Part shown: piece after piece, positions 17,281 through 53,498 of the stretch | Layout: every line of letters begins with the position of its first letter | How positions within the stretch are numbered: the first letter of the stretch is position 1 | Notes under the pieces: model-generated | The model's database searches: none | What the model saw: the letters and a program-made list of their open reading frames with translations, nothing else | What the model was told of the DNA's origin: nothing | Translations under genes and position numbers: made by a program | Source of the DNA: Saccharospirillum sp. | GTDB lineage: Bacteria > Pseudomonadota > Gammaproteobacteria > Pseudomonadales > Natronospirillaceae | DNA length: 64,000 nt | Assembly: GCA_018402545.1 (NCBI GenBank) | Contig: JAGYIL010000003.1 | Span: 124,001 to 188,000, forward strand | Reading direction: 5' to 3'

Positions 17281-17462
17281 AGGTTCCGCACCTATACCAG
17301 GGTGGCAATTAGCCAAGTGCAGGCTGCCGGGTAGGCCTATCCGGGGTAGTCCGCAGCAAGGATGCTGCGGCCTAGGCTCCACGGATGGATTCACGCCGAC
17401 CCCGGATAGGCCTACCCGACAGCCTGCACGGACAACAGCCACCCAGTGCGCAGGAACCTGCG
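17281..17462 (-). repeat. Palindromic intergenic element, copy A
   Basis: A 31-bp arm at 17317-17347 pairs with 17399-17429 with one mismatch. The centre holds a second hairpin (CCGCAGCA / TGCTGCGG) and, on the minus strand, the family core GGCGTGAATCCATCCGTGG. Weaker complementarity extends outwards to about 17281 and 17462 (for example GGTTCC against GGAACC). It ends about 10 bp before the T-run at the 3' end of rnpB. Same family as the copies at 44026, 44793, 49706 and 53315. Confidence 0.85.
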
Positions 17463-17482
17463 AAAAGGGTTTAAAAAAAGAG

Positions 17483-17828
17483 TGCGAGTCAGCCGATAAG
17501 CCGGGTTCTGTCGTGGACAGTCATTCGTCTAGCCCTGCAGTCACCCGCAGGGTCAAGCAGCCTACCCGGTCCCGACGCGGGCCGCGCCTTAGTGGGACCC
17601 TATTTGGCCTTGCTCCAGGTGGGGTTTACCATCGCCAGCTCTGTTACCAGACCTGCGGTGCGCTCTTACCGCACCTTTTCACCCTTACCGCTCGCAAGCG
17701 AACGGCGGTTTCCTTTCTGCTGCACTTTCCGTCGGCTTTCGCCGCCCAGACGTTATCTGGCACCCTGCCCTGTGGAGCCCGGACTTTCCTCTCCTTCTTT
17801 CGAAGCAGCGACTGCCTGGCCAACTCGC
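17483..17828 (-). ncRNA. rnpB: RNase P RNA (M1 RNA)
   Basis: Catalytic RNA of RNase P, which removes 5' leaders from tRNA precursors. Read on the minus strand I recognise the conserved blocks of type A RNase P RNA in order: GAGGAAAGTCCGGGCTCC near the 5' end, CAGGGTGCCAG, AAGGGTGAAAAGGTGCGGTA, GGTAAACCCCACCTGGAG, CAAGGCCAAATAGG, GGGTAGGCTGCTTGA, TAGACGAATGACTGTCCACG and ACAGAACCCGGCTTATCGG. About 346 nt. The 3' end is placed at the T-run 17479-17472; the 5' end is estimated from alignment to memory of the E. coli RNA and from the promoter at 17836-17863. Confidence 0.95.
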
Positions 17829-17835
17829 GGGGCGC

Positions 17836-17863
17836 ACAATACGGGAAACCCGACGAATCGCAA
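17836..17863 (-). promoter_or_regulatory. Promoter of rnpB
   Basis: Minus-strand -35 TTGCGA (17863-17858), 16-bp spacer, -10 TATTGT (17841-17836), followed by a GC-rich discriminator of the kind found at stable-RNA promoters. The predicted start near 17829 matches the expected 5' end of the RNA. Confidence 0.65.
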
Positions 17864-17892
17864 GTGTTTTTCTGTCGCAGAGCCGCCGAGGC

Positions 17893-18750
17893 TCAATCGG
17901 CCTTATTCAAACCGGTAATCAGCTCATACCACTCTTTCTTGCGTCCACCGATTAACGACACCATGGCTGCCGCGGCTTGTTTGGGTGGCATCAGCGGCGC
18001 CAGCACATCCGCCAAAGCCTTTGGATCGAGCCCAACTGCCTGATCCGCTCGCGCCTCCCCTGCCACCATCACCACAAACTCACCTTTGCGCTGATGCTCG
18101 TCTGCCTCAACCCAGCCCAACACCTCATCGAGCGTACCTCGCAATACGGTTTCAAAGGTCTTCGTGAGCTCCCGGGCAACCACTACCCGCCGGTCGCCGC
18201 CATAGACCGATACCATATCCCCCAGGCTGGCCAGAATGCGATGGCTACTCTCGTAGAACACCAGGGTGTGAGGGCTCTCTGCACAGGCTTGCAACGCCTT
18301 TTGCCGGGCGGCCGTCTTAGCTGGCAAAAAGCCTTCGAACCGCCAGTGGTCCGTGGGTAAACCGGCGACGCTTAAAGCGGTAATGACCGCACTGACTCCA
18401 GGCACCGGATGCACCGGGAAGCCGGCGTCGGCCACGGCCTGAACCAGGTGATAGCCCGGGTCGGAGATCAGCGGTGTACCGGCATCGCTGATCAGTGCGA
18501 CCGACTGGCCCTGCTCCAGTAAAGAAACAATAAAGTGTCCGCGGTCCCGTTCATTATGCTCATGGACGGAGATGAGTCGGGGTGACGCCCCCAGATGATC
18601 CAGCAAACGGCGGCTGTGCCGGGTATCTTCCGCACAGCAGACATCCACTGACGATAGCACCGAGACCGCACGGCGCGTTATATCATCCAGATTTCCGATG
18701 GGCGTCGCGACGACATAAAGAGCCGCTGGCAGAGTTGTATTGACAGACAT
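17893..18750 (-). CDS. rsmI: 16S rRNA 2'-O-methyltransferase RsmI
   Basis: SAM-dependent 2'-O-methylation of C1402 of 16S rRNA, the same nucleotide RsmH modifies. 285 residues, a tetrapyrrole-methylase fold: YVVATPIGNLDDITRRA at the N-terminus, AEDTRHSRRLL, SDAGTPLISDPGYHLV and the RRKGEFVVMV segment. I chose the ATG at 18750, preceded by GAGGT; an in-frame GTG at 18780 would add ten residues. Divergent from lpoA, the arrangement seen in E. coli. Confidence 0.96.
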   Translation of the reverse strand: MSVNTTLPAALYVVATPIGNLDDITRRAVSVLSSVDVCCAEDTRHSRRLLDHLGASPRLISVHEHNERDRGHFIVSLLEQGQSVALISDAGTPLISDPGYHLVQAVADAGFPVHPVPGVSAVITALSVAGLPTDHWRFEGFLPAKTAARQKALQACAESPHTLVFYESSHRILASLGDMVSVYGGDRRVVVARELTKTFETVLRGTLDEVLGWVEADEHQRKGEFVVMVAGEARADQAVGLDPKALADVLAPLMPPKQAAAAMVSLIGGRKKEWYELITGLNKAD

Positions 18751-18916
18751 GAGACCTCGGCTGGGTGGTGCCAGAAGCACCCGGGCAAACTAGGGTTAAC
18801 GGGAACGGTTATAACCGACACTGTACCAGAAGCGGGTTCCTTACAGGCAACGCCCTATTTCATCTTCACTTTATTCAGTAGAATGACGGTTATCCATTGT
18901 AACCAGCGCCCGGTCC

Positions 18917-20743
18917 ATGTTGAAAATGTCCATCACCAAAACTGCCCTGTCACTCTGCACCTGGATTGCCATCGCGCTGCTGGCCGGCTGTGCCAGCCAG
19001 TCAACAACCTCGGACCCATCGTCGGATGAATCGGCACCAACGGTCGACGGCCTCGTCGACCAGCGCCTGGACCAGGCACAGGCCCTGCTCGAAGACTATC
19101 AGGTCAATGAAGCCGAGGTGGTACTGAGCGGTCTTCAGTTCAATCAATTGACCACATCCCAGCGCACACGCTACGCGCAATTGAGAGCCGAGCTGGCGCT
19201 GAGCCTGGGTGACGGCAATGAAGCACTCAACTGGCTCAGTGGAGACCGCGCCTCCCTGTTTGATGGATTGCCGTTGGAGCAGCAAAAAGTCATCAGCCTG
19301 ATGCGGGCGGAAGCTTACGAATATTCCGGCAACTATTTATCGGCCGCACGTGAGCGAATATTTCTGGCGCCGGTTTTGGAAGGTGATGATGCCCGGTTCA
19401 ACAACGAACAGATTTGGTTCGACCTGCAACTGGTACCCGAAGAGTCGATTCGCGACCTGGTCGCCGCAGAATCGAGCCCCGACCTGACCGGCTGGCTCGA
19501 GCTGGCGCTGATAGCGCGGGACAATCCGGACGACCTGCGCCGTCAGGTGATCGCCATCGACGAATGGATCAACAGCCATCCGTCACATCCGGCCGCCCAG
19601 AACATCCCCGGCGACCTGGCGTTACTGCGCCAACTGGCCAACACCCAGCCCCGCAACATCGCAGTACTGCTGCCTTTGTCCGGTCCGTTGGAAATGGCCG
19701 GCAAGGCCATACGCAGCGGTTTACTGGCAGCCTGGTACGAATCGAGCATCGAAGAAGGCGTAGTACCCTCACTGACTTTCTTTGACACCAACAAGAATGC
19801 CGATGCCTACAACACCTACAAGCAAGCCGTGTTCGAAGGCGCCGACCTAGTCATCGGTCCGCTCGATAAAACACGGGTTCAGCAATTGCAGCAGCAAACT
19901 GTACTTTCAGTTCCGGTATTGGCTCTTAACTACAGCGACCTTGCGGGCAGTGGTCCGTCCAACTTTTACCAGTTCGGCCTGGCACCTGAAGACGAAGCCA
20001 AGCAGGTTGCCGAACAGGCCTGGCAGCAGGGCAATCGCAACGCCATGGTGCTGGCACCCGATTCTGATTGGGGTCGCAAAGTAAGCGACACCTTCGTTCG
20101 CAACTGGGAAACCCAGGGCGGGCGGATAACCAGCAAATCACTCTATACCCAGCCAGACCAGTATCTCAACACGGTTCGCCAGGCACTTAACATCGATCAG
20201 AGTGAACGACGCATGCGCGCGCTCGATACCCTGATCGAGCGAAACATTATTTTTGAGCCACGCCGGCGCGAAGACATCGACATGATATTCATGGTCGCTT
20301 TTCCGTCTCAAGCTCGTCAGCTCAAACCCATGCTGAATTTTCAATACGCCTCTGACATTCCGGTTATGGCCACATCGCACCTCTATGATGGCACCCGCAA
20401 TACCAGCCGCGATCAGGATCTGAATGGCGTGTCATTCGTCGAAATGCCCTGGGAGTTGCGCGAAAACCAGATCAAACGTGATGTACAGGCTGCGTTTAAT
20501 GAACAGTTTGCAGGCTTCGAATCTCTGGTAGCACTGGGTGTAGACAGCTACCGGCTTTACCCACGTTTGCCGCAATTACAACAGTTCCCCGACACTCGCG
20601 TCTACGGTGTCACCGGCACTTTAAGGCTCGATGCCCGGCAACGTATTGAGCGTGAATTAACCTGGGCCCAGTTCAGCAACGGTGAAGTTCGCCCGGGCAC
20701 CGGACTGGTCAATGTTCTCAACCCCACGGGTATTACGCCCTGA
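18917..20743 (+). CDS. lpoA: Outer-membrane lipoprotein activator LpoA
   Basis: Outer-membrane lipoprotein that reaches through the periplasm to stimulate the transpeptidase of PBP1A. 608 residues. A signal peptide ends in the lipobox LAGC with the lipidated Cys at residue 25. The N-terminal third is helical with TPR-like character; from about residue 240 (NIAVLLPLSGPLEMAGKAIRSG) there is a periplasmic-binding-protein-like domain. The divergent partner rsmI and downstream yraN, diaA and dolP match the gammaproteobacterial block. Stop and yraN start share one base. Confidence 0.94.
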   Translation: MLKMSITKTALSLCTWIAIALLAGCASQSTTSDPSSDESAPTVDGLVDQRLDQAQALLEDYQVNEAEVVLSGLQFNQLTTSQRTRYAQLRAELALSLGDGNEALNWLSGDRASLFDGLPLEQQKVISLMRAEAYEYSGNYLSAARERIFLAPVLEGDDARFNNEQIWFDLQLVPEESIRDLVAAESSPDLTGWLELALIARDNPDDLRRQVIAIDEWINSHPSHPAAQNIPGDLALLRQLANTQPRNIAVLLPLSGPLEMAGKAIRSGLLAAWYESSIEEGVVPSLTFFDTNKNADAYNTYKQAVFEGADLVIGPLDKTRVQQLQQQTVLSVPVLALNYSDLAGSGPSNFYQFGLAPEDEAKQVAEQAWQQGNRNAMVLAPDSDWGRKVSDTFVRNWETQGGRITSKSLYTQPDQYLNTVRQALNIDQSERRMRALDTLIERNIIFEPRRREDIDMIFMVAFPSQARQLKPMLNFQYASDIPVMATSHLYDGTRNTSRDQDLNGVSFVEMPWELRENQIKRDVQAAFNEQFAGFESLVALGVDSYRLYPRLPQLQQFPDTRVYGVTGTLRLDARQRIERELTWAQFSNGEVRPGTGLVNVLNPTGITP

Positions 20744-21096
20744 TGGTTTGGCGACCGGTAAAAGGCGGCGATGCGGAAGACCAGGCTCACGACTGGTGCC
20801 AGCAGCAAGGCTGGACGGTGCTGGCGCGCAATTTTCAGGTAAAGGTAGGCGAAATAGATCTGATTTGTCGCGATGGAGAAACACTGGTGTTTGTCGAAGT
20901 CCGGCAGCGTCGCAATGAGCGGTTTGGCTCCGCCAGCGCCAGTGTTACCCCCGCGAAACAGAAAAAACTGATTCGGGCGGCCCAATGGTATTTGCAATCC
21001 AACCCGGCACAAGCCCGCCGCGGCGCCCGCTTTGATGTACTGGCACTCGATAAAAACAATGCCATTCACTGGATTAAAGGAGCCTTTGCGGCCTGA
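20743..21096 (+). CDS. yraN: UPF0102 endonuclease-fold protein YraN
   Basis: 117 residues of the UPF0102 family, which has a restriction-endonuclease-like fold (GEIDLICRDGETLVFVEVRQR contains the E-x-D...E-V-R/K pattern). The biochemical role is not established. The ATG at 20743 overlaps the lpoA TGA by one base and its own TGA overlaps diaA the same way, so the three are a tight translational unit. Confidence 0.93.
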   Translation: MVWRPVKGGDAEDQAHDWCQQQGWTVLARNFQVKVGEIDLICRDGETLVFVEVRQRRNERFGSASASVTPAKQKKLIRAAQWYLQSNPAQARRGARFDVLALDKNNAIHWIKGAFAA

Positions 21097-21692
21097 TGAC
21101 CGAGCCCGATGACATTCTCTACGAGCACATTGGCCAAAGCCTTGAATCCTTTCAATGGGTGGCCGAACAACTCGACGAATTGCTGCACCACGGCGCCGAC
21201 CTGCTAACCGAAGCGCTGCTTAACGACGGAAAAATACTGGTCTGCGGCATGGGCAGTTCCGCCGCACTTGGCCAGGGCTTTGCCACGGGCATGCTCAGTC
21301 GATTCGACCGGGAGCGCCCCGGCTTGCCCGTCTTGGCGCTGTCGGGCGACGGGTCTCTGATGAGTGGCATCAGCTACGACACCAACCCCAATGACATCTT
21401 CGCCCGGCAGGTTCGCACGCTCGGGCACGACCAGGACGTGCTGCTCGCAATTTCAGCATCGGGCAAGGCTCCTGCCGTAATCAAAGCGGTGCAGGCTGCT
21501 CACGACATGGGTTTGTGCGTTGTCGCACTAACCGGGCCGGACGGTGGTGACATCGCTACTCTGTTGGAAGAGAATGATGTTGAACTCAGTGTTTCCGGCG
21601 CCACCAATACCAGTCTGCAGCTCACCCACCATTTGATTCTGAACTGCCTGGGTGCGCTGATCGAACATCAATTATTTGGAAGTGAGCTCTGA
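21096..21692 (+). CDS. diaA: SIS-domain DnaA initiator-associating protein DiaA
   Basis: 198 residues of the phosphoheptose-isomerase-like SIS family. In E. coli the gene at this locus, DiaA, is a tetramer that binds DnaA and promotes timely initiation at oriC. Visible are GKILVCGMGSSAALGQGFA, RQVRTLGHDQDVLLAISASGKAPAVIKAV and VALTGPDGGDIA. Sequence alone cannot fully separate DiaA from GmhA; the lpoA-yraN-dolP neighbourhood favours DiaA. Confidence 0.88.
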   Translation: MTEPDDILYEHIGQSLESFQWVAEQLDELLHHGADLLTEALLNDGKILVCGMGSSAALGQGFATGMLSRFDRERPGLPVLALSGDGSLMSGISYDTNPNDIFARQVRTLGHDQDVLLAISASGKAPAVIKAVQAAHDMGLCVVALTGPDGGDIATLLEENDVELSVSGATNTSLQLTHHLILNCLGALIEHQLFGSEL

Positions 21693-21693
21693 T

Positions 21694-22263
21694 ATGAAAC
21701 TCCCTGTTATCATCGTTATGTCCGGTTTTCTCGCCCTCAGCGGGTGCGCAAGCCTGTTAGGCAGCGCTACCGATGAGCCCATTGTTCCCGACACCGAAGG
21801 CCGTAGCATGGGCCAGGTGATAGACGACAACAGCCTCGAAACGCGCCTGGCCGTCAACCTCGACAAAGCCGATGAACGCTTCAGCCAGAGCCGCATCGGC
21901 ATTCACGTCAACAGCGGTCTGGTGCTTCTGGTTGGTCAGGTTCCCAGCACTGATTTAATTGCCCGGGCCACCGAGGTTGCGCGCAACGACCCCAAGGTCG
22001 AAGCGGTGCACAACCACCTCACAGCAAAGGCACCCATTTCAGCCGGTGTGCGCACCAATGACTCCTGGCTTGAGGTAAAAGTTAAATCGAGAATGTTTAC
22101 CACCGATGAATTCTCGTCTTCCAACGTAAATATTGTGGTTGAAGAGGGTGTTGTTTATTTGCTCGGTCGGGTAACCCGTGACACCGCACAACAGGCGGTC
22201 ACCATCGCGTCGGAAGTCTCGGGTGTGCAAAAAGTGGTGACTGTTTTTACCCCGGCCGACTAG
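21694..22263 (+). CDS. dolP: Dual-BON-domain outer-membrane lipoprotein DolP
   Basis: 189-residue lipoprotein (formerly YraP) that supports outer-membrane integrity and, in E. coli, division-site envelope functions. Signal peptide with lipobox LSGC, Cys at residue 18; Ser at +2 fits outer-membrane sorting. Two BON domains follow, the first around residues 50-110 (VNLDKADERFSQSRIGIHVNSG), the second around 115-185 (VKVKSRMFTTDEFSSSNVNI). I used the ATG at 21694, one base after the diaA stop, because upstream in-frame codons would lengthen the signal peptide into diaA. Confidence 0.93.
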   Translation: MKLPVIIVMSGFLALSGCASLLGSATDEPIVPDTEGRSMGQVIDDNSLETRLAVNLDKADERFSQSRIGIHVNSGLVLLVGQVPSTDLIARATEVARNDPKVEAVHNHLTAKAPISAGVRTNDSWLEVKVKSRMFTTDEFSSSNVNIVVEEGVVYLLGRVTRDTAQQAVTIASEVSGVQKVVTVFTPAD

Positions 22264-22315
22264 TTCCGGCCAGCACCGGGAAGGCCTGGAATAATTTGAA
22301 GCACGCGCAGACAAG

Positions 22316-22328
22316 CGCAGTAACTGCG
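22316..22328. promoter_or_regulatory. 13-bp palindrome before the usp gene
   Basis: CGCAGT-A-ACTGCG, a perfect 6+1+6 inverted repeat, 54 bp before the start of the stress-protein gene. Possible operator; no regulator can be named. Confidence 0.35.
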
Positions 22329-22381
22329 ACTAAGCTTTAAACAACAGCCGCCGAATGAATCGACCCTGTGAGGAACTGGCC

Positions 22382-23281
22382 ATGTTTAAACACAAACACA
22401 TTATTGTCTTGATTGACCCGGCCGAAGACAGTGCTCTGGCCGTCAGCAAGGCAAGCCGTCTGGCGCGTCTTGACGACGCGCACCTCACCCTTTTTGCCTG
22501 CGGTTACAATGCCAGCCTGGCGTCCAACCATCCGCTCAACCCGGAAACGTCCGAAAAAGCCCAGAAAGCCTATATGCATCGCATGATGGAAGGGCTGGAA
22601 ACCATCGCCGACATCGCTCGCAATGAAGCCGTCGAGGTCTCACTTGAAGGCGTCTGGGACAAGCACGCGGGCACGGCGTTGTTGAATTACCTCTCTGAAC
22701 ACCCGACCGACATGGTGGTAAAGGCAACGCACCATCAAAACGTGATTCAGCGTACCTTCTTCAGCCAGACCGACTGGGAGCTGATTCGCCATTGCCCGGT
22801 GCCGCTGCTGCTGACCAAATCAAACGCCTGGGGTGACCCGGTGCGCCTTACTGCCGCTGTAGACCCGGTGCAGGCGAACGATAAACCCGATACGCTCGAT
22901 GAACACATTGTTCGCTGGGGCAAGGATTTTGGCACCCATCTTAACGGCCGGCTCGAGCTGCTGCATGTGTACGACCCCACGCCCCTGCTTATTTACCTCG
23001 ATCAGCCCACCATCGACAGTGCCGACATCAGCGAAGAGATTCGCGAGCAACACGAGCAGGCCTTGCACCAACTGGCCGATCAGCATCAGATCGACCGGGC
23101 CAACACGGTGCTCGAAACCGGCTCAACACTGTCGGTTATTCCGGAATACCTGCACCAGGCCAATGTTGACATGGTCATCATGGGGGCTGTGGCCCGAAGC
23201 GGACTGGAACGCTGGCTGCTGGGCCACACCGCCGAGAAAATTCTGGACCGGATAACGGTCGATATTCTGATCGTTAAGTAA
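22382..23281 (+). CDS. uspE: Tandem universal stress protein, UspE-like
   Basis: 299 residues with two Usp domains in tandem, as in UspE: residues about 1-140 (HIIVLIDPAEDSALAVSKASRLARL) and about 150-299. The second ends in IMGAVARSGLERWLLGHTAEKILDR and VDILIVK, the G-x2-G-x9-G-S/T-type nucleotide-loop pattern of ATP-binding Usp proteins. The DWELIRHCPVPLLLTK segment is UspE-like. I chose the ATG at 22382, after GAGGAA; an ATG at 22355 is in frame but lacks a site. Role by family: survival under starvation or low oxygen. Confidence 0.85.
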   Translation: MFKHKHIIVLIDPAEDSALAVSKASRLARLDDAHLTLFACGYNASLASNHPLNPETSEKAQKAYMHRMMEGLETIADIARNEAVEVSLEGVWDKHAGTALLNYLSEHPTDMVVKATHHQNVIQRTFFSQTDWELIRHCPVPLLLTKSNAWGDPVRLTAAVDPVQANDKPDTLDEHIVRWGKDFGTHLNGRLELLHVYDPTPLLIYLDQPTIDSADISEEIREQHEQALHQLADQHQIDRANTVLETGSTLSVIPEYLHQANVDMVIMGAVARSGLERWLLGHTAEKILDRITVDILIVK

Positions 23282-23309
23282 CGGCGCGCCCTCGTTCAGC
23301 ATGCCATAA

Positions 23310-23340
23310 GGTGCAACACACTCTTTCAAGGTGTTGCACC
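23310..23340. repeat. 10-bp perfect inverted repeat between usp and aroA
   Basis: GGTGCAACAC (23310-23319) and GTGTTGCACC (23331-23340) flank an 11-nt loop. No T-run follows, so a simple intrinsic terminator is unlikely. It sits 59 bp before aroA and 29 bp after the usp stop; an operator or RNA hairpin are both possible. Confidence 0.6.
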
Positions 23341-23398
23341 GGATGCAAGACCACCCCAAGCTGACGTACAATAGCCGCCCGATTTCTTCAGCGTACGG

Positions 23399-24691: not shown

Positions 24692-24741
24692 TGAGCTCTG
24701 TGTACCCTGCGGAAAACCCTCACTCTGCGACCATGGTAAGG

Positions 24742-24770
24742 CTGCAAAGCGGCGTGTCAGTCCCTATAAT
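24742..24770 (+). promoter_or_regulatory. Promoter of ppa
   Basis: A perfect -10 TATAAT at 24765-24770 with CTGCAA 17 bp upstream (24742-24747) as a weak -35. The start would be near 24777, giving a leader of about 65 nt. Confidence 0.5.
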
Positions 24771-25372: not shown

Positions 25373-25403
25373 TCCAATTGGCCTGAATCGCCAAAAAAAT
25401 GCT

Positions 25404-43821: not shown

Positions 43822-44025
43822 TGAAACCTCTTACAGGCCGGCAATTTCAAGGGACTTAACCGTCAATCCAGTCGTCCCACGGGGCACAGCACAGCCGGGC
43901 TGTACTAGAGCGGGCCGTATTATGCGGATCACACTCTGATGAGCCCAGCTTTTTTTCAACGAATATTCGAAGTTCGAAGTCGCTGTTCTAGGTGGCTAAT
44001 TTTACTACAGCAAGTGCCGGAATCC
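43822..44025. other. speD upstream region
   Basis: Part of the 396-bp gap between speD and osmC. It holds the presumed speD promoter and the ribosome site GAGG, but no gene I can support. The repeat element at 44026-44138 occupies the rest. Confidence 0.4.
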
Positions 44026-44138
44026 GTGCTGGCCACCGGGCAGGCTTGTCCGGGGCCGGCGTGAACCCATCCATGGGGCCTAGACTTCGGCATCCATGCC
44101 TCAGACTTCCCCGGAAAAGCCTACCCGGCAGCCATCAC
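44026..44138 (+). repeat. Palindromic intergenic element, copy B
   Basis: Arms 44026-44055 and 44109-44138 are complementary with several mismatches (inner 8 bp TCCGGGG/CCCCGGA best). Core on the plus strand is GGCGTGAACCCATCCATGG followed by GGCCTAGAC. The central hairpin contains GGCATCCATGCC. With copy E, in opposite orientation, it brackets osmC. Confidence 0.85.
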
Positions 44139-44211
44139 TTACTACATTGGCTAAACTAACTACCCGCACTTGTCGCAAAGGTGAACGGCATATTCATCAT
44201 GCTTACCAATT

Positions 44212-44634
44212 TCACTCAACATCAACCAATTCAAAGTCATGAGTGATCACAACGCCACCTTTCTCCAGCATCATGGACGCCGAACAGTACTTTTCGGCCG
44301 AGAGTGCTATGGCTCGCTCTACCTGAGCAGGTTTAAGTTGACGCCCGGTAACGATGAAATGAATGTGTATTTTGGTAAAAACTGCCGGCACGGTATCGGC
44401 GCGCTCAGCACTCAGCTGTGCCTCGCAGTTCACCACGTCCTGGCGACTTTTCTGCAGGATGTTGACCACATCATAAGAGGTACAGCCGCCCAGGCCATTC
44501 AGTATCAATTCCATTGGGCTCGGACCCTTGCTACCCGGGCCGTCTTTGGCGGCACCATCCATATAGCCCTTATGGCCCGATTCCGACTCGTAGGAAAAGG
44601 CCTTGCCACCTGCCCATGCAACCGTTGCTTTCAC
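44212..44634 (-). CDS. OsmC/YhfA-family protein
   Basis: 140 residues of the OsmC/Ohr fold. The two redox Cys positions are visible in LGGCTSYDVV and EKYCSASMML. Family members reduce organic hydroperoxides with a thiol partner; the YhfA branch is not well defined biochemically. A gene of this kind next to crp is conserved in gammaproteobacteria (yhfA-crp), which supports that branch. The start is GTG at 44634 after an AGAGGAG site. Confidence 0.88.
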   Translation of the reverse strand: MKATVAWAGGKAFSYESESGHKGYMDGAAKDGPGSKGPSPMELILNGLGGCTSYDVVNILQKSRQDVVNCEAQLSAERADTVPAVFTKIHIHFIVTGRQLKPAQVERAIALSAEKYCSASMMLEKGGVVITHDFELVDVE

Positions 44635-44792
44635 GCTTCATTACTCCTCTGAAACCCGACTGAGCGGGCCCGGGTTAGTGTTCAATACCGTCTGAGGCGC
44701 GAAGCCTAGCACAGTCTGATTTAAAGCCGAACAGAGGCCCCCCCCCTTCCTGTACGCCTTGTCACTAAAGTTTCAGTGTTCGCAATGGATTA

Positions 44793-44905
44793 GCGACGGG
44801 TGGTAGGGCTGCTTTTGCGGGGATATCTGAGGCATGGATGCCGAAGCTAAGCCTACATGGAGGTATGCACGGCGACCCCGCAAAAGTGGCCCTGCCATCC
44901 GTCGC
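44793..44905 (-). repeat. Palindromic intergenic element, copy E
   Basis: Arms 44793-44822 and 44876-44905 pair with about four mismatches (GCGACGG/CCGTCGC outside, TTTTGCGGGG/CCCCGCAAAA inside). It lies in the inverse orientation to copy B: the 18-base GAGGCATGGATGCCGAAG is shared exactly with the reverse complement of copy B. Its minus-strand core has drifted furthest from the family. Confidence 0.82.
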
Positions 44906-45040
44906 GGGCGCAAGGCAATGTATCCAACCCTAACTCCAAATCCTGGCCATAATGGGCAATGAACTTGTAAAAACGGGACGCAAGTCATACAAATAGGTAG
45001 AGCCCATAGCCAGAATCGATTGAATATCCCATAATGCCGA

Positions 45041-46002: not shown

Positions 46003-46068
46003 CCCTCCTCTGCTGCCAAAGGCTTAAGCTTGCACGCTGTTAACCCACCAGCACAGCGAGCATACGCC

Positions 46069-47460
46069 ATGTCGGCTTTCAACGCCCAGTCCATTCAGTG
46101 GGATGCGCGCCTGATCGAAAAGTACAACGTTCAGGGACCGCGCTACACCTCATACCCGACCGCTGCCCAGTTTCATGACATCAGTGCGGCCGGGGCCAGC
46201 GAGCACTATCACCAGCAAACAACCTCTGTGGCACCCATATCGCTGTACGTGCACATCCCCTTTTGCCGCCACCTTTGCTATTACTGTGGCTGCAACAAAG
46301 TAGCGGCCAAAAGCAGCGCCCGGGGCGACGATTACCTGACCTGGCTGGAGCGGGAAATGGCGCTGATGTCACACGATTTTGGCCAGCGCCCCGTTACCCA
46401 GCTTCATCTTGGTGGTGGCACGCCCACCTTTCTGACGGTCAATCAGATGCGGCAACTGCTCGACCGGCTGTCGATCTATTTCGACTGGAACCCAAGCGAC
46501 CGGCCAGGCGAATACTCCATTGAACTCGACCCCCGGGAAACCTCGTCCGACATGCTGGAATTACTGCGCCAGCGTGGGTTTAACCGGTTGAGCTTCGGCA
46601 TTCAGGATTTCAACCACCAGACCCAGGTCGCCATTCACCGGGTGCAACCGAAGTCGGTGGTTGAACCCCTGGTGCAGCAAGCCCGGCATCTAGCGTTCGA
46701 ATCGATCAGTTTTGATCTGATTTATGGGCTGCCCTACCAAACAGTCGACCGGGTTGATGCAACACTCGACGATGTACTCGACCTGGGGCCCGATCGAATC
46801 AGCCTGTACAACTATGCTCACTTGCCTGATCGCTTTGTGGCCCAACGGAGAATCAGCAGCGACAGCCTGCCCGACGCCGACGAAAAGCTGCGCATTCTGC
46901 AACACTGCATCATCAAATTGCAGGCGGCTGGCTATGTCTACATCGGCATGGACCATTTTGCACGGCGTGACGACACCCTGGTCAAAGCGCTCGCCGATGG
47001 CAGCCTGCAACGCAACTTCCAGGGGTATTCGACCCAGGCAGAGACCGACATGCTGGCACTCGGTGTCTCTGGCATCAGCCAGATACAGGGCGCCTTCATA
47101 CAGAACCACAGCCAACTAGAGCCTTACTACAATGCGCTCAAGCAGGGCACACTAGCGGTTCAGCGCGGCTATTTCCTGACCCGGGATGACCAGATGCGGC
47201 GCGACATCATCAACCAGCTGGCCTGCCAGGGGCAGATCGATCTGGGGCCTGTCGCAGAGCACTATGGCCTGAATGCAGGCCGGGATTTCAGCCGCGAATG
47301 GCAGCAACTGGCCGATCTGGAGCAAGACGGACTGGTGCAACTGACTGAGCACCGGATAACCGTAACGGCACTCGGTCGTTTATTGCTTCGCCCGATCCTG
47401 ATGGTCTTCGATGCCTATTTGAGCAACCAGAACCGTCAGCGTTTTTCCAAAGTGATGTGA
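46069..47460 (+). CDS. hemN: Oxygen-independent coproporphyrinogen III oxidase
   Basis: Radical-SAM enzyme that converts coproporphyrinogen III to protoporphyrinogen IX without oxygen. 463 residues. The cluster motif is HIPFCRHLCYYCGCNK (Cx3CxxCxC) near residue 60; LHLGGGTPTFL and SFGIQDFNHQTQVAIHR follow, and the C-terminal HemN domain is present. I chose the ATG at 46069 (MSAFNAQ); an in-frame TTG at 46030 gives 13 more residues without a site. Regulation by an FNR-type protein is supported by the box 67 bp upstream. Confidence 0.95.
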   Translation: MSAFNAQSIQWDARLIEKYNVQGPRYTSYPTAAQFHDISAAGASEHYHQQTTSVAPISLYVHIPFCRHLCYYCGCNKVAAKSSARGDDYLTWLEREMALMSHDFGQRPVTQLHLGGGTPTFLTVNQMRQLLDRLSIYFDWNPSDRPGEYSIELDPRETSSDMLELLRQRGFNRLSFGIQDFNHQTQVAIHRVQPKSVVEPLVQQARHLAFESISFDLIYGLPYQTVDRVDATLDDVLDLGPDRISLYNYAHLPDRFVAQRRISSDSLPDADEKLRILQHCIIKLQAAGYVYIGMDHFARRDDTLVKALADGSLQRNFQGYSTQAETDMLALGVSGISQIQGAFIQNHSQLEPYYNALKQGTLAVQRGYFLTRDDQMRRDIINQLACQGQIDLGPVAEHYGLNAGRDFSREWQQLADLEQDGLVQLTEHRITVTALGRLLLRPILMVFDAYLSNQNRQRFSKVM

Positions 47461-47533
47461 CAACGGCCTGTATCTGGCGGTAGAGCCCGACAGGCCTTAT
47501 CCGGTATCATGGCGGCAACTAAGGAGACCCGCC

Positions 47534-48805
47534 TTGACCGACTTTGTTCGTATTTTTCGCAACAGCGCACCCTACATTCATGCCTACCGGGGCAAAACCG
47601 CCGTGGTCTGGGTGCGCGGCACCGTGCTCAGCCCATCGTCCGTGCATGCCCTGGTCAGTGACCTGGCACTGCTGAACAGCCTGGGTATGAAATTGTTGCT
47701 GTTGTTCGATGCTGAAGATGAAGTCGGCGAACTGCGACTCGATGAACACGCCCAGATCGATGGCGACGCCATGGACGCCATTCTCAATCGCATCGGCCAT
47801 TGGCGCAGCCGGCTGGAAGCGCAATTTACCCAGGGCCTGGCCAATTCGCCAATGCACGGTGCCCGGGTCAGGGTGATCAGTGGTAATTTTGTCACCGCAC
47901 GCCCCACGGGCGTTGTCGACGGTGTCGACTTGCTGGCCCAGGGGCGCGTGCGCCGTATCGATCACCTGGCCATTCGCGAACACCTCGACAAAGGCAATAT
48001 CGTGCTGATGCCTCCGCTGGGCTATTCGGTCACCGGTGAGGTTTTTTATCTGGCACCTGATCACCTGATGGTCGAGACCGCGCGCCGGTTGGACGCTGAC
48101 AAAATCGTCATCGTCGGCGATAACCCGCACCCGGTGACCGCCAACCAGAAAGAAATGGACGCCTTTGAACTGCGCCGGTGTCTTGAAGGTAAAACCGGCC
48201 TGGCTGCCGGTGAGCGTGAATTGCTGACGGCTCTGGCCGCCAGTGAAGCCGGTATTCCGCGCTGCCATGTGATCGACGGCCATCAGGACGGTGCCCTGCT
48301 GGCAGAGCTCTTTACCCGCGACGGCGTCGGCACCCTGATCGCCCGCGATCGCTACGACACCTTTCGCCCGGCCCGGCCCGATGACATCAACGGCATTCTT
48401 GCCTTGCTTCAACCGCTTGAAGAGCGGGGCATTCTGGTGCGCCGTGACCGCGAAAAACTGGAAAATGAAATCTCCCATTTTCACGTCAACGAACGCGACG
48501 GCATGATCGTCGGCTGTGCCGCCTTGTACCTGATTCCCGACACAGAACCCCAGGTAGCCGAGCTGGCCTGCGTGGCAGTGCATCAGGATTATCGTCAGTC
48601 AGGTCGTGGTGATGCCCTGTTGCGGGCGCTGGAAAAACGCGCACGCGAGCACAAGGTTGAGCGTTTGTTCGTGCTGACTACCCAGACCGCACACTGGTTT
48701 GCCGAACGCGGGTTTGAGTCTGCACCCGTGGCTGAACTGCCACCCGAACGGCAAAGTTTGTACAACTTTCAGCGAAATTCGAAAGTCTTTTTCAAATCAC
48801 TTTGA
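47534..48805 (+). CDS. argA: N-acetylglutamate synthase ArgA
   Basis: First step of arginine synthesis. 423 residues: an N-terminal amino-acid-kinase-like domain (about 1-290, regulatory arginine binding) fused to a C-terminal GNAT acetyltransferase domain (about 290-423; VAVHQDYRQSGRGDALL contains the acetyl-CoA loop). The start is TTG at 47534 with an AAGGAG site seven bases upstream. Fusion of both domains is the classical ArgA form. Confidence 0.95.
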   Translation: MTDFVRIFRNSAPYIHAYRGKTAVVWVRGTVLSPSSVHALVSDLALLNSLGMKLLLLFDAEDEVGELRLDEHAQIDGDAMDAILNRIGHWRSRLEAQFTQGLANSPMHGARVRVISGNFVTARPTGVVDGVDLLAQGRVRRIDHLAIREHLDKGNIVLMPPLGYSVTGEVFYLAPDHLMVETARRLDADKIVIVGDNPHPVTANQKEMDAFELRRCLEGKTGLAAGERELLTALAASEAGIPRCHVIDGHQDGALLAELFTRDGVGTLIARDRYDTFRPARPDDINGILALLQPLEERGILVRRDREKLENEISHFHVNERDGMIVGCAALYLIPDTEPQVAELACVAVHQDYRQSGRGDALLRALEKRAREHKVERLFVLTTQTAHWFAERGFESAPVAELPPERQSLYNFQRNSKVFFKSL

Positions 48806-48844
48806 ACGGTCATCAACAACCGTTCGCAAGCAGGGGGTAACACC

Positions 48845-49663
48845 GTGAACTTTATGGACGCCATCGCCCGGCGCTGGGACCAGGGCACCCAGGTTTGCAT
48901 CGGGCTCGATCCCTTTATCGACCGGCTGCCCGCCCCGTTCCAGCAACAGAGTGACGGCATTCTGGCGTTCAACAAAGCCATTGTGGACGCCACCTCAGAT
49001 CTTGCCTGTTGCTACAAACCCCAGTTTGCCCATTTCGCGGCCGAGCAAGCCGAAGCGCAACTGAAGGCGAGTATTGCCTACATCAAAGCCCGATATCCGG
49101 ATGTTCCGGTTATTCTGGATTCCAAGCGAGGCGACATCGGCTCTACCGCCGCCATGTATGCCCGTGAAGCGTTCGAACATTACGGCGCCGACGCGGTAAC
49201 GGTTAACCCCTATATGGGTTCCGACACCGTCCTGCCTTTTGCAGATCATGCCGATAAAGGTGTCATTCTGCTGTGCCGCACCTCGAATCCCTCGGCGGCC
49301 GAATTCCAGAACCTGCTGATCGACGGCGAACCACTCTACATTCACGTGGCGCGACGCGCCCAGCAACACTGGAACCAGAATAAAAACATCGCTCTGGTGG
49401 TCGGCGCCACGGCCCCGGAAGAGATGGCGCGCATTCGCCAGGCCGCCCCGGACCTGCCCTTTCTGGTACCCGGCATCGGCGCCCAGGGTGGCGACCTGCC
49501 CGGCACCGTGCATAACGGACAAACCGCCCCGGGGCGCGGACTGATGATCAATGCCTCGCGCAGCATACTTTACGCCAGCCAGGGCACCGACTTTGCCGAG
49601 GCGGCACGAGCCGAAGCGCTGAGCCTGCGCGATCAAATTCAGTCACTGGCCACTGCTGGCTAG
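48845..49663 (+). CDS. pyrF: Orotidine-5'-phosphate decarboxylase, type 2
   Basis: Last step of UMP synthesis. 272 residues, longer than the enteric PyrF, with the type 2 catalytic sequence LDSKRGDIGSTAAMYA (Lys-x-x-Asp geometry differs from type 1 LDLKxHD). Also CIGLDPFIDRLP at the N-terminus and FLVPGIGAQGGD for phosphate binding. GTG start at 48845 after AGGGGG. Repeat copy C begins 43 bp after the stop. Confidence 0.94.
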   Translation: MNFMDAIARRWDQGTQVCIGLDPFIDRLPAPFQQQSDGILAFNKAIVDATSDLACCYKPQFAHFAAEQAEAQLKASIAYIKARYPDVPVILDSKRGDIGSTAAMYAREAFEHYGADAVTVNPYMGSDTVLPFADHADKGVILLCRTSNPSAAEFQNLLIDGEPLYIHVARRAQQHWNQNKNIALVVGATAPEEMARIRQAAPDLPFLVPGIGAQGGDLPGTVHNGQTAPGRGLMINASRSILYASQGTDFAEAARAEALSLRDQIQSLATAG

Positions 49664-49705
49664 CATTCGAGTACCTGGGCTGGGTTGGCAGGCCGGCACT
49701 GGTCC

Positions 49706-49818
49706 GCGCCGGTTACCGGGTATGCCACTGTGGGGTCGGCGTGAACCCATCCATGGGGCCTAGACCGCAACATCCATGTTGCGGACTTCCCCACAGAGGC
49801 ATACCCGGCACCCGGCGC
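49706..49818 (+). repeat. Palindromic intergenic element, copy C
   Basis: Arms 49706-49735 and 49789-49818 pair with about four mismatches (GCGCCGG/CCGGCGC, TGTGGGG/CCCCACA). Core GGCGTGAACCCATCCATGG is identical to copy B. Inner hairpin CCGCAACAT-CC-ATGTTGCGG. It fills the space between the convergent pyrF and aminotransferase genes, and its right edge touches the aminotransferase stop codon. Confidence 0.9.
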
Positions 49819-51263
49819 TAGTCTCCTGAAAAATCTCCTGAACTTGAATGAATGAGCCAGTCACCCCAAAGCTGGGCCGTATTCAAAGATGGTTGTGAAC
49901 TCGCCACTTTCCCACCGCCTACCAGTGCCTTCAATGCGGATAAAATCCGGTCAAGGTCCTCCGTGGTCATCATCGGATGAAAGCTCAGCCGGACCCATCC
50001 GGGTTTTGCGGCCAGTTCGCCGCGATCCAGCTGGCCGGTAATGGCCTGGCTGGTTGCGCGGTCTATGCCCAGCAAATAGTGCCCGTACGTACCTGCACAG
50101 GCACAGCCACCGCGGGCTTCAATGCCGTATTCACGGCTCAGCCGCTGCACCGCCTGCTGGTAATGCAGGCCCTCGATGATGACTGAAAAGACACTGAGCC
50201 GTTCGCTTTGCTCCCGTGCCAGGCATTGAACGCCGGCTATGCGGTCAAGCCCCTGCAGGAAATACTGGTTTAACTCATGCTCGCGCTGAGCGATAGCGCT
50301 AACGCCAATCTCATCTTTTAATTGCGCTGCCATCGCTGCTTTCAGGCTCTGCAGAATGCCCGGTGTTCCGCCCGATTCACGGGTTGCAATGTCCTGATAG
50401 AAGCGATGCTCGCCCCAGGGGTTGGTCCAGACCACGGTACCACCGCCGGGCTGCTCTGGTATCCGGTTGTGATACAACGCTGCATTGAACACCAACACAC
50501 CGCTGGCCCCGGGCCCGCCTAGATATTTGTGGGGTGAGAAAAACACGGCATCCAGGGGTTCATCGTCTGCGGGGTGCATGTCGATGTCGACGTAGGGGGC
50601 TGCGCAGGCAAAATCGACAAAACAGTATCCGCCTGCCTGATGCATCAGTCGCGCAATGGCGCGGTACGGGGCTGCCACGCCAGTCACATTGCTGGCCGCC
50701 GTGACCGAGGCCATGACGGGCTGACCAGCAGGCAGCTCGCGCAGCGACCCGGCCAGCCAGTCCAGATCCACATCCCCGGTCTGGGTAGGCGGGATGATCA
50801 CGACCTCGGCCAGCGTCTCAAGCCACAGTGTATGGTTGCTGTGGTGCTCCATATGGGTCACATAGACCCGGGGCCGGTGGGTCAGCGTCGACAACACCGT
50901 GTCGCGGTGAGATTCGTGAACCCAGAGCCCCAGCATCCGCACCAGCTTGGCCAGTGCCCCGGTCATGCCCGTGCCGGTAAACAACAGCACATCGTCCTGG
51001 GCGGCATTTACGTGCTGACGCAGGATCTGGTGGGCTTCGTCCAGTGCCCGGGTCATAAACCCGCCAGTGAGGCTGTCTTCGGTGTGGGTGTTGGCCATCA
51101 TCGGGCCGGCGACCTCGAGCAAGCGCTGCTCGATCGGGCGATAAAGCCGCCCACTGGCGGTCCAGTCAGCGTAAAGCCGGTTGCCGGGTATCGGCAGGGT
51201 GTTGGCGCGCAGGCGGGCCCAATCGGGGCTGGTCGCTATGGGGCGAGTACTGTATGCGGTCAT
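49818..51263 (-). CDS. Class V aminotransferase, cysteine-desulfurase-like
   Basis: 481 residues, PLP-dependent fold type I. The PLP lysine is in FFSPHKYLGGPGASG; HMEHHSNHTLW gives the His that stacks on the cofactor; DFACAAPYVDID holds the PLP-N1 Asp; and a conserved Cys region, ARGGCACAGTYGHYLLG, is in the position of the desulfurase/selenocysteine-lyase cysteine. It lacks a full isc or suf context, so the substrate is unknown. Divergent from an Lrp/AsnC regulator 128 bp away, which may control it. The stop codon lies at the edge of repeat copy C. Confidence 0.8.
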   Translation of the reverse strand: MTAYSTRPIATSPDWARLRANTLPIPGNRLYADWTASGRLYRPIEQRLLEVAGPMMANTHTEDSLTGGFMTRALDEAHQILRQHVNAAQDDVLLFTGTGMTGALAKLVRMLGLWVHESHRDTVLSTLTHRPRVYVTHMEHHSNHTLWLETLAEVVIIPPTQTGDVDLDWLAGSLRELPAGQPVMASVTAASNVTGVAAPYRAIARLMHQAGGYCFVDFACAAPYVDIDMHPADDEPLDAVFFSPHKYLGGPGASGVLVFNAALYHNRIPEQPGGGTVVWTNPWGEHRFYQDIATRESGGTPGILQSLKAAMAAQLKDEIGVSAIAQREHELNQYFLQGLDRIAGVQCLAREQSERLSVFSVIIEGLHYQQAVQRLSREYGIEARGGCACAGTYGHYLLGIDRATSQAITGQLDRGELAAKPGWVRLSFHPMMTTEDLDRILSALKALVGGGKVASSQPSLNTAQLWGDWLIHSSSGDFSGD

Positions 51264-51391
51264 GGGCGGTTCCCGTTAGTCATTACCCGACCAGTGTGAC
51301 GCCTCGAGAGTCCCAATGTATTTCATTTTTTGCGACGAATGCGCTAAATTCAGCAAATAATTTCTGACATTTACTTAATTGGAGGCATAGA

Positions 51392-51844
51392 TTGCCCGAC
51401 ACGATCGACATAGCCATTTTGAACCTGCTGCAACAGGATGCGACCCTGTCGGTGCAGGCCATCGCCGAGAAGGTTAATCTGACCTCCAGTCCCTGCTGGC
51501 GTCGCATCCAGGCACTGGAAGACCAGGGGTATATTCGACGCCGGGTTGCGCTGCTAAACCGGCAACCGCTGGCATTGGGCGTGGATGTGTTCGTCTTCAT
51601 TCGTACCCGCGAACACAACGACACCTGGCTGACGGACTTTACCGAGGCGGTGCTGGCCATGCCCGAGGTGATGGAAGCCTACCGGATGAGCGGAGATGTC
51701 GACTATCTGCTCAGAGTCGTGGTAGGCGACATCGCCGCCTACGACCGCTTCTACAAGCGGCTGGTCAGTCGGGTGAAACTGGCGGATGTGAGCAGCAGTT
51801 TCGCGATGGAGCAGTTGAAATACACCACCGCCCTGCCCCTGTAG
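51392..51844 (+). CDS. Lrp/AsnC-family transcriptional regulator
   Basis: 150 residues: N-terminal winged helix-turn-helix (DIAILNLLQQDATLSVQAIAEKVNLTSSPCWRRIQALE) and C-terminal RAM ligand-binding domain (VFVFIRTREHN... VMEAYRMSGDVDYLLRVVVGD). The start is TTG at 51392 after a GGAGG site. Divergent from the aminotransferase, the common layout for a local Lrp-type regulator and its target; the amino-acid ligand is unknown. Confidence 0.9.
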   Translation: MPDTIDIAILNLLQQDATLSVQAIAEKVNLTSSPCWRRIQALEDQGYIRRRVALLNRQPLALGVDVFVFIRTREHNDTWLTDFTEAVLAMPEVMEAYRMSGDVDYLLRVVVGDIAAYDRFYKRLVSRVKLADVSSSFAMEQLKYTTALPL

Positions 51845-51857
51845 CAGCCAGGCACCA

Positions 51858-52442
51858 CTATTGCGTATGGCCACGGGTGAGCGCCAAAAAGCCACCGAGT
51901 GAGATCAGCAGTACCGAGGCGCCGCCCAGTATAGCGACCGGATACATCAGATTGCCGGCTAGATCGAGTTGGCTGTATTTAATGATCATGATCAGCGACT
52001 CGAGAACCAGCGCAATACACACCGTGCCCAGAAACCGGGTAATGGTTCGGCGAATGTTGGTAAAGACGTTCTCTTCCTGATCAGATTCCGTGTACTCCTT
52101 GCTGATGCCTGCCCCGAGTTCGAACATGGCCAGACCGATGATCAGCGAGTTGACCACGTTGACCGTGATGGACATAAAGCTACGTTCACCGGCTATAACA
52201 TCGGTGAAAAAATGAAACACCCCGCTGATCACCAACAATGCGGACAGACTGTAAAACAGGACGGTAAAAACCCGAACCATCAGCTGTTTGCCGACATGGC
52301 TCAATGCCTTGAACCCCAGCGGGTGAAAAGCCTGCGTCGCCTCGGCAGGGAGCTTTTCTGCCTGCTCCGCTGGTCCATTCGGAGTATTCAATTCACGAAT
52401 CTCTTCCGGTGTTAAGTTCAAATCAATGGTCTGGCTTGTCAT
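51858..52442 (-). CDS. Uncharacterised four-helix membrane protein
   Basis: 194 residues with an N-terminal soluble part (about 1-55) that begins MTSQTIDLNLTPEEIRELN, then four hydrophobic segments at roughly 63-83, 95-118, 136-158 and 168-190. A conserved-looking amphipathic stretch, SKEYTESDQEENVFTNIRRTI, lies between helices 2 and 3. I do not recognise a family. I chose the ATG at 52442 after AGGGAA; the open frame runs further upstream without a site. The last bases are 13 bp from the Lrp-type gene, in convergent orientation. Confidence 0.75.
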   Translation of the reverse strand: MTSQTIDLNLTPEEIRELNTPNGPAEQAEKLPAEATQAFHPLGFKALSHVGKQLMVRVFTVLFYSLSALLVISGVFHFFTDVIAGERSFMSITVNVVNSLIIGLAMFELGAGISKEYTESDQEENVFTNIRRTITRFLGTVCIALVLESLIMIIKYSQLDLAGNLMYPVAILGGASVLLISLGGFLALTRGHTQ

Positions 52443-52570
52443 ACTGTTAATTCCCTTGCTGACTGGGTAAAGCGTGCGACCGATGCTATAGCAAGTCGGG
52501 GGCCGGGCAAGCAGCGTCAGGTAAAGCCGGGCGGGAATCGGGTAAAGGCGCGTAAAGCTTCTCACTCAGG

Positions 52571-52586
52571 TGTGACCAGGCTCACA
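52571..52586. promoter_or_regulatory. Perfect Crp-binding site
   Basis: TGTGA-CCAGGC-TCACA matches the Crp consensus TGTGA-N6-TCACA at all ten positions. It lies between the divergent membrane-protein gene (starts at 52442) and the outer-membrane-type gene (starts at 52740), with crp itself in this window. A -10-like TACTCT near 52656 or an unseen site nearer the box could belong to the plus-strand gene. Confidence 0.75.
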
Positions 52587-52739
52587 TAGCCAGGAGTTCC
52601 AGCCTAAGGTTTGTCAGCCTGTGAAAATTCAGTTGGGGTTCATGATAGAGGCAGATACTCTACTCATTGCATTGAGCGGCGAGTCGTACTGTGCCAGACG
52701 CATCCGACCGTCACCCCAAGATTGCGGGAGCCATCAATC

Positions 52740-53273
52740 ATGACGTGCCCGACCGGATACCGGCAAGCCATCCTCATCGCTTGCCTGATGACAGCAACCA
52801 GCCTCGCCCAGGCCAAAGATGACTTTGTCTGGCTATCCTATGGAGGTCAGCAGGGTTATTTCGAATCGCCCTATGTGGGCGTCGGCTTTATGGCCGATAC
52901 CTGGGGCGCTGAGCTGGGTCTGGTATTGCGGTCAGACTACTCTGGCAACGTGAACATGTACGAGCCACCACACAGCGACACTTACCGGGTCTCGAACAAC
53001 GCCGTCGTAGGTTTCCCGCTGCACCTGTCCATTCTGAAGGGCTACGCCCCCAACGACCGCATAGCGTTCTACACCTCGCTGGGCTTGCTGGCTTCAACCC
53101 GGTGCGATATTGAAGAATCCAACGTCACCGGCTATGCCTACTGCGCCAATGAGCGCTCGGAGTTTGAACTGATACCCGGCGTCAGCGCCCTGTTCAGCCT
53201 GAATGAGTTCACCCTGGGCATGGGCTACCAGTATGGGATTGGCCCGCTGATCTCGCTGGGAACGGATTTTTAA
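52740..53273 (+). CDS. Uncharacterised exported protein, outer-membrane beta-barrel-like
   Basis: 177 residues. A Sec signal peptide (MTCPTGYRQAILIACLMTAT...) with probable cleavage after SLAQA, then alternating hydrophobic/polar strands rich in Gly, Tyr and Phe, ending in a terminal Phe (LISLGTDF), which suits an outer-membrane barrel. One Cys pair could form a disulfide. No family recognised. I chose the ATG at 52740 because the signal peptide starts there and GGGAG precedes it. Confidence 0.72.
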   Translation: MTCPTGYRQAILIACLMTATSLAQAKDDFVWLSYGGQQGYFESPYVGVGFMADTWGAELGLVLRSDYSGNVNMYEPPHSDTYRVSNNAVVGFPLHLSILKGYAPNDRIAFYTSLGLLASTRCDIEESNVTGYAYCANERSEFELIPGVSALFSLNEFTLGMGYQYGIGPLISLGTDF

Positions 53274-53314
53274 AACTCACTACCCATAACGGTTCACCTT
53301 AGTGGTATTGGCCC

Positions 53315-53498
53315 GCACCGGCCACCGGGTATGCCTCTGTGGGGTCGGCGTAGATCCATCCATGGAGCCTAGGCCGCATGATATGAATCCCCTCCATGGG
53401 ATTCACCCTCCGGGCTCGCTGCGCTCATGCTAAAACACTCCTGGCGTTTTAGTCCCTGCTGCGGACTACCCCACAGAGGCATACCCGGCACCCGGTGC
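53315..53498 (+). repeat. Palindromic intergenic element, copy D (expanded)
   Basis: Arms 53315-53344 and 53469-53498 pair with three mismatches (GCACCGG/CCGGTGC, TCTGTGGGG/CCCCACAGA). Core GGCGTAGATCCATCCATGG. Unlike the other copies, about 70 bp is inserted in the central loop (roughly 53380-53457). The insert carries two hairpins of its own: TGAATCCC/GGGATTCA (53384-53405) and CTAAAAC/GTTTTAG (53430-53452). Confidence 0.87.

Follow-up and report, generated by a model that had tools for sequence, protein, structure and literature searches.

Introduction

The structured RNA motif TwoAYGGAY (Rfam RF01731, clan CL00106) has been proposed to bind CsrA, as stated in the accessible part of PMC4333381, and the accessible part of PMC2864571 lists it for the human gut, γ-Proteobacteria and Clostridiales. 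A high-affinity site for CsrA or RsmE consists, in the available text of PMC4005645, of a hexaloop ANGGAX placed directly on a stem. Among dispersed repeats, the repetitive extragenic palindromic (REP) elements and REPINs that go with a REP-associated tyrosine transposase (RAYT; GTAG type) and the CGTC REPs are described, in the portion of PMC3733652 at hand, as high-copy, extragenic palindromes, often arranged as inverted pairs and mostly situated in tandem or convergent gaps. Here we describe a palindromic family with five copies in a 64,000-nucleotide stretch of Saccharospirillum sp. (GenBank assembly GCA_018402545.1, contig JAGYIL010000003.1, positions 124,001 to 188,000; this whole stretch is called the window below, and its positions are counted from its first letter). 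Each copy is a stem of about 29 bp closing a three-way junction with two hairpins, both of whose loops read A-N-G-G-A-N on the same strand, the GGA strand. We propose, with the chances about evenly balanced, that this is a non-autonomous, dispersed palindrome of Gammaproteobacterial genomes and that transcripts of its GGA strand carry a two-loop clamp or decoy for CsrA.

Structure and conservation

All five copies reported for the window by an initial annotation were recovered by a covariance model, R1 (E 4.3e-30 to 4.8e-23); five other rows were the same palindromes on the opposite strand. R1 was seeded with 31 copies, 28 of them from a blastn search with copy 4 (copy 4 included) and three further ones from the window. 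Copy 1 (17315..17432, GGA strand +, 130.7 bits) has arms of about 29 bp, the three-way junction and two ANGGAN hairpins. Copies 2 (44023..44140, −, 115 bits) and 3 (44791..44908, +, 109.9 bits) lie close together, copy 4 (49703..49820, −) has the top R1 score in the window, 138.8 bits, and copy 5 (53312..53500, −) scores 108.6 bits. These limits replace the coordinates first given; the outer ends quoted at that time, GTGCAGG/CCTGCAC, GCGACGG/CCGTCGC, GCGCCGG/CCGGCGC and GCACCGG/CCGGTGC, were all correct. In copy 4, hairpin 1 (49738..49760, −) reads GGCCCC-AUGGAU-GGG, then a UUCAC bulge and GCC, with its loop at 49749–49754, and hairpin 2 (49765..49784, −) reads CCGCAAC-AUGGAU-GUUGCGG with its loop at 49772–49777. 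The similarity of the two loops goes unremarked in the initial annotation, to which the outer inverted repeats of part of the copies were not visible.

The search for further copies with a covariance model, suggested at the outset, was productive. Used as a plain DNA query against its own genome (G000, 4.25 Mb), copy 4 gave 55 matches, some of them partial or opposite-strand readings, and R1 found at least 150 copies, a lower bound because these are all that were scored among 2096 first-look candidates and the window copies at 44791 and 53312 are missing from them. At E 1e-6, R1 has matches in 22 of 56 further genomes belonging to the genus, the family or the order, and at E 1e-7 in 22 of 142 other genomes drawn across the class. 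The host is close to Saccharospirillum impatiens (G001), placed in Gammaproteobacteria by NCBI, an OsmC-like neighbour of the element being 91% identical to its counterpart there.

The fold is more stable than 200 of 200 dinucleotide shuffles for every copy on the strand folded (both strands of copy 1, the + strand of copies 2 and 4, one strand each of copies 3 and 5), with z scores of −10.3 and −9.5 for the two strands of copy 1 and −8.9 for copy 5. Across the 31 copies, standard pairs occupy 97.5% of 1302 cells, compared with 87.0% after shuffling and 32–48% when one side is slid. Compensatory change with pairing kept, the central claim of the initial annotation, is borne out: 27 of 42 pairs vary on both sides, against 13.6 in shuffles, and 0 of 500 shuffles attain 27, in a comparison that leaves relatedness uncontrolled. 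The same behavior is seen between species. In six well-matched copies common to G000 and S. impatiens (rank at most 4 in a similarity ranking, with a 118-nt partner; two of such rank with longer partners were excluded), 25 of 252 pairs differ, 14 by two-sided change, 9 via G.U and 2 by breakage. In a 119-nt copy compared between the loci L289 (Vreelandella utahensis) and L292 (Halovibrio salipaludis), the six differing bases amount to one two-sided arm change, both loop-1 N positions and two outer bases.

Conservation is concentrated in the loops. In the 120 full-length copies, those of exactly 118 nt on which the column and mismatch counts rest (30 copies with indels were excluded), the loop letters A..GGA and the closing C-G are each kept in at least 118; the N before GGA varies freely in both loops, as does the last loop base in hairpin 1. 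ANGGA is intact in loop 1 of 118 copies, in loop 2 of 114 and in both loops of 113, so that two hexaloops of the ANGGAX form sit directly on stems in those 113. The GGA strand carries at least one CANGGANG in 149 of the 150 copies and at least two in 129, whereas on the opposite strand it turns up in a single copy; together, the 150 copies hold at least 278 CANGGANG sites of the CsrA-type form. Of 34 copies in the genomes of relatives (same-genus copies included, seven opposite-strand rows excluded), 33 had two or more ANGGA anywhere in the copy, as did 26 of 28 copies in G024, a genome from another family of the order.

The two strands are not equivalent. On the GGA strand of the full-length copies, we counted 238 G.T against 7 A.C oppositions, along with 119 other mismatches. 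At columns 12/106, G.U is in fact the most frequent pair (74 of 120), and once columns 11 and 12, where it is common, are dropped, the count is still 102 to 7. Since most copies had been found by a fold-aware model, 28 copies obtained by BLAST only, without a structural model, served as a control and gave 45 G.T to 2 A.C, or 17 to 2 without the two columns. The arms of the 28 G024 copies gave 34 to 7, and relatives' other copies 42 to 20, a rough figure as arms were matched at a single fixed offset. Because of this excess of G.T over A.C, selection seems to act on the single GGA strand, most simply as RNA, with single-stranded DNA as the remaining alternative. The initial annotation had offered selection on the folded form or a by-product of spreading; the strand-specific excess, which is not expected from arm copying or spreading alone, favors the former.

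Possible function

The A-N-GGA-N loops point to CsrA as a candidate partner, rather than to the nucleoid-protein sites suggested initially. In the mechanism that we propose, the long stem, free to change in sequence, would hold a junction from which two A-N-GGA-N loops, each on its own stem, are displayed, and the working form would be the folded RNA transcribed from the GGA strand. The two loops together would form a putative clamp for one CsrA/RsmA dimer, a step that shares the even chance of the whole explanation. A transcript containing a copy could thereby become a CsrA decoy or gain a CsrA-protected end, and the copies might jointly act as a sponge or protect the transcripts that carry them. 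Spread and turnover in intergenic DNA, mostly behind genes, would be due to some enzyme or to recombination. A bolder version, possible though tentative, is a mobile regulatory decoy: a selfish family that seeds many CsrA clamps and either serves as a distributed sponge buffering the Csr network or exploits CsrA to survive or to spread itself. Its fold would be kept by single-strand selection while arms, orientation and the contents of loci turn over.

Several results weigh against the proposed mechanism. The link to RF01731 by model is thin: the best match of the window, to copy 2, scores 29.5 bits with a gathering cut-off of 43, and scanning the window with Rfam at the gathering score gave no RF01731 match. 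With copy 4 alone as query against Rfam at E up to 2, RF01731 was not listed and mostly weak microRNA matches were returned; at E up to 1 it appeared in none of 11 relatives' loci. Two full CANGGANG sites occur in only 1 of the 28 G024 copies. A CsrA gene is found in all 57 genomes (a single one in the window's own), with or without the element, and its presence therefore proves nothing. Between codirectional neighbors, 46 copies run with and 47 against the direction of the genes, which is random, and antisense copies are about as intact as sense copies (both loops in 33 of 36 and 39 of 41, respectively). Selection is thus not exerted via simple read-through of the neighboring gene, and with no orientation bias we rejected such read-through as the basis of function. 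Orientation is not kept between species either: at 18 single-copy sites common to S. impatiens and G000, hand-picked with both flanks matched and with four loci with paired copies set aside, it is the same in 9 and inverted in 9. Finally, hairpins of single-stranded DNA likewise tolerate G.T better than A.C.

Alternative explanations

The best of the rivals, which we nevertheless think unlikely, is a mobile palindrome acting purely at the DNA level, of the miniature inverted-repeat transposable element (MITE) or REPIN kind, in which a transposase or recombinase would read the folded single-stranded DNA or the outer repeats and the RNA would go unused; the strand asymmetry would then mirror the folding of single-stranded DNA during mobilization. 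The random orientation would suit such an element, as would the outer inverted repeats of about 18 bp that flank 43 of the 150 copies on both sides, most commonly at a total length of 184 bp (18 of 43). The polarity of close pairs also favors it. The GGA strands mostly point outward, an arrangement denoted (−,+), in 8 of 8 pairs within 800 bp in G000 and in 7 of 7 among the G024 places listed, although direct pairs occur at L065, at L074 and in S. impatiens (C11:9908 and 10681, 655 bp apart).

Comparison between species reveals turnover that would also be natural for a DNA-level element. We compared 40 S. impatiens loci, taken from high-scoring places, with the G000 regions around known copies, a design in which sites empty in G000 are invisible. 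Copies 2 and 3 are absent from the same sites in S. impatiens, and at the site of copy 5 (L336) the element is inverted relative to its flanks. Positional partners in S. impatiens rank anywhere from 1st to 118th in similarity among 151 G000 copies (21 compared), and sites therefore seem to outlive the particular element they hold. At C1:2431778, four species have an R1 copy at the same place, in the same orientation in S. salsuginis (G004), in the opposite one in S. impatiens and as a (−,+) pair in G003.

Other observations count against the DNA-level explanation. Among 30 loci around Y1_Tnp genes, each reaching about 1.5 kb to either side where the contig allows, R1 matched one, weakly at 30.5 bits, and Y1_Tnp is about equally frequent whether a genome has the element (16 of 23) or lacks it (22 of 34). 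A RAYT partner is thus unsupported, the association with a TnpA-REP-like transposase suggested initially did not hold, and the family lacks the RAYT link of GTAG REPs and REPINs. One Y1_Tnp gene of S. impatiens (C58:13968) is 3.6 kb away from a copy. A weak excess of target duplications of 6–7 bp (z 2.9 and 4.3) among the 43 copies with both repeats is confounded by their palindromic flanks; we judged it unconvincing and recognize no clear duplication. No transposase carrying the outer repeats was found among the roughly 100 of 119 outer-repeat places listed, and the sole 1.3-kb spacing inspected among them proved to be an insertion sequence (IS) within a copy; on this one case we set aside the idea that the outer repeat identifies an autonomous transposon. 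A DNA-level palindrome also gives no reason for A-N-GGA-N in both loops, with stems and N positions free, across many genera.

The IS just mentioned (L373:1575-2785, about G000:C1:2714374-2715584) contains a 316-aa transposase-like open reading frame. It interrupts the element within the core CTAG and has CCTAGG at either side; by eye we take it to be IS481-like. Elements of 105 and 84 bp with the same outer repeats and no core are found at L376 and L377 (G000:C1:1597306-1597410 and 1715151-1715234). Copy 4 had no blastn match at E 1e-3 in phage and plasmid records, a search that would miss distant copies, and viral contigs scanned with a neighboring protein yielded nothing, which bears little on the element.

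It is improbable, in our view, that the element ends transcripts, as a terminator or 3'-end protector serving its neighbors from either strand. With genes called by an in-house codon-usage script, none of the 150 copies overlaps a gene by 30 bp or more, and 93 of them are in tandem, 40 in convergent and 17 in divergent gaps. The earlier statement that all copies are intergenic agrees with these gene calls except that the end of copy 4 (49818–49820) coincides with the 3-base stop codon of an aminotransferase-like gene (49818-51263:-). Gaps with a copy (n = 142) include 38 convergent and 17 divergent ones, compared with 17 and 61, respectively, among gaps of at least 60 bp without a copy (n = 188), and the median distance is 47 bp to gene 3' ends versus 127 bp to 5' ends. 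This enrichment of convergent and avoidance of divergent gaps would suit a transcript-end element, but insertions that avoid promoters would yield the same. The asymmetry on one strand only, combined with random gene orientation, speaks against it, as does the lack of copies 2 and 3 at the same sites in S. impatiens.

The arms are almost unconstrained in sequence. The G024 copies have closely similar cores, but the arms of different copies are barely closer than shuffled ones, with a mean best match at 10.6 versus 9.9 of 26 positions (one shuffle); because the best pairs reach 19 of 26, distant kinship among them is likely. Within a copy, nevertheless, the two arms pair at an average of 25.9 of 28 positions. 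We rejected the idea that arms act as guides or are copied from host sequence: a search with 16 of the 28 G024 arms in the genome that carries them gave 36 matches, of which 32 fell on the copy's own two arms and four, of 15–18 bases, had E of at least 0.19. Still less probable than a transcript-end role, and difficult to maintain as a complete account, is that arms match merely through template-switch copying at palindromes with no selection on the fold, for although this would account for the nearly unrelated yet self-complementary G024 arms, for two adjacent arm pairs altered together between L351 and C1:2427825 and for opposite orientations at the same sites, it would give perfect arms rather than G.U as the commonest pair at columns 12/106 and G.T over A.C, and copying does not conserve loops. 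Template switching may help the arms change quickly.

Window copies in their surroundings

Copy 1 is separated by about 50 bp from the 3' end of an RNase P RNA gene of class A (17481-17827:-; Rfam 334.6 bits). By Pfam, copy 2 is located between an S-adenosylmethionine-decarboxylase-like gene and an OsmC-like gene, and copy 3 separates the latter from a CRP-like gene, so that the OsmC-like gene (44212-44634) is flanked by a (−,+) pair. Among 80 loci with an OsmC relative, four have R1 matches in the gaps corresponding to copies 2 and 3. Upstream of the gene, L288, L289 and L292 each have a match that keeps the orientation found here; downstream, so do L289 and L292, the match of L285, from a metagenome-assembled genome, is inverted, and a further copy was seen by eye in L288. 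Copies oriented as copy 3 occupy its gap in L288, L289 and L292. The gene is hence bracketed by a (−,+) pair here and in the loci of Vreelandella utahensis (L288, L289) and Halovibrio (L292), and not in S. impatiens.

Copy 4 lies between convergent genes. Copy 5 carries an insert of about 71 nt in hairpin 2 (~53379-53452), which recurs in L374 and L378–L381 and adds hairpins with AGGA or ATGGA close to their tips. Some other copies contain a 15–16 nt motif, placed in hairpin 2 or, as the reverse complement, in hairpin 1.

Comparison with known systems

What is new here is a high-copy, dispersed, intergenic family with random gene orientation. Binding of CsrA would join REP- and MITE-like repeats with the Csr/Rsm RNA network, two fields so far separate. 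If the at least 278 sites bind CsrA, they were placed by a mobile repeat, which matters for the prediction of Csr targets, and an explanation would be on offer for the orphan TwoAYGGAY motif. Independent of this, the strand-specific G.U signature and the random orientation raise the question of what selects an RNA-like fold heedless of the neighboring genes.

The nearest relative appears to be TwoAYGGAY. Both have a long stem, a three-way junction and two loops, A-Y-GGA-Y in a CAUGGAUG context there, with the hairpins in equal order in an alignment; here the loops are relaxed to A-N-GGA-N, copies are far more numerous, and outer inverted repeats are present in part of them. The accessible sources treat TwoAYGGAY as a structured RNA candidate or a possible CsrA-binding small RNA, not as a dispersed repeat. 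By its anatomy the family would function as a CsrA-binding RNA, and it looks related to TwoAYGGAY, yet it is not filed under RF01731 because the window copies stay under the cut-off. The initial failure to match a named family thus holds at that cut-off and misses the shared architecture. In the literature on Marinobacter, Shewanella and Halomonas repeats and on CsrA with repeats, no description of the family was found among the matches listed.

RF01731 itself is represented above the cut-off in the window's own genome by one member (49.6 bits, at C6:287664-287784:-); another match there (C6:298446-298567:-, 42.9 bits) forms a (−,+) pair with a family copy at C6:298648. Members over the cut-off occur in 7 of 57 genomes, the own one included; at E 0.01, dispersed sets of 33, 11 and 15 matches exist in G054, G014 and G020, with 4 of 4 close pairs in G014 being (−,+) among the places listed. 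In S. impatiens, three core-only RF01731 matches on one strand, about 270–310 bp apart (C53:1547-2183), perhaps represent an array.

The suggestion of a MITE- or REP-like element is borne out in part, in that the family is dispersed, palindromic and variable between species; a RAYT link was not found in the loci inspected save for one weak match, and the outer repeats and target duplications lend it less clear support. With GTAG REPs and REPINs and with CGTC REPs the family shares high copy number, extragenic palindromes, frequent inverted pairs and a preference for tandem and convergent gaps (PMC3733652, in the part available), but REPs measure 20–40 bp, compared with about 118 bp and arms of about 29 bp here, and the 30 RAYT-type loci inspected are without copies save for that weak match. 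CGTC REPs have stems of 8–9 bp, loops of 4–5 and a CCA tail, compared with a hexaloop on 7 counted pairs in hairpin 2; CGTC does precede hairpin 2 in several distant copies. Like MITEs, the copies are short and non-coding and in part bounded by inverted repeats of about 18 bp; they differ in that both repeats occur in a minority, duplications are not clear and an autonomous partner was not found among the repeat places listed. Finally, the CsrA-sequestering RNAs of the CsrB and RsmX/Y/Z type resemble the family in carrying multiple GGA loops that follow the high-affinity pattern, according to the available text of PMC4005645. The difference is one of organization: these RNAs are encoded, as the accessible part of PMC4333381 describes them, by single small RNA genes, whereas the family found in the window consists of many dispersed two-loop units.

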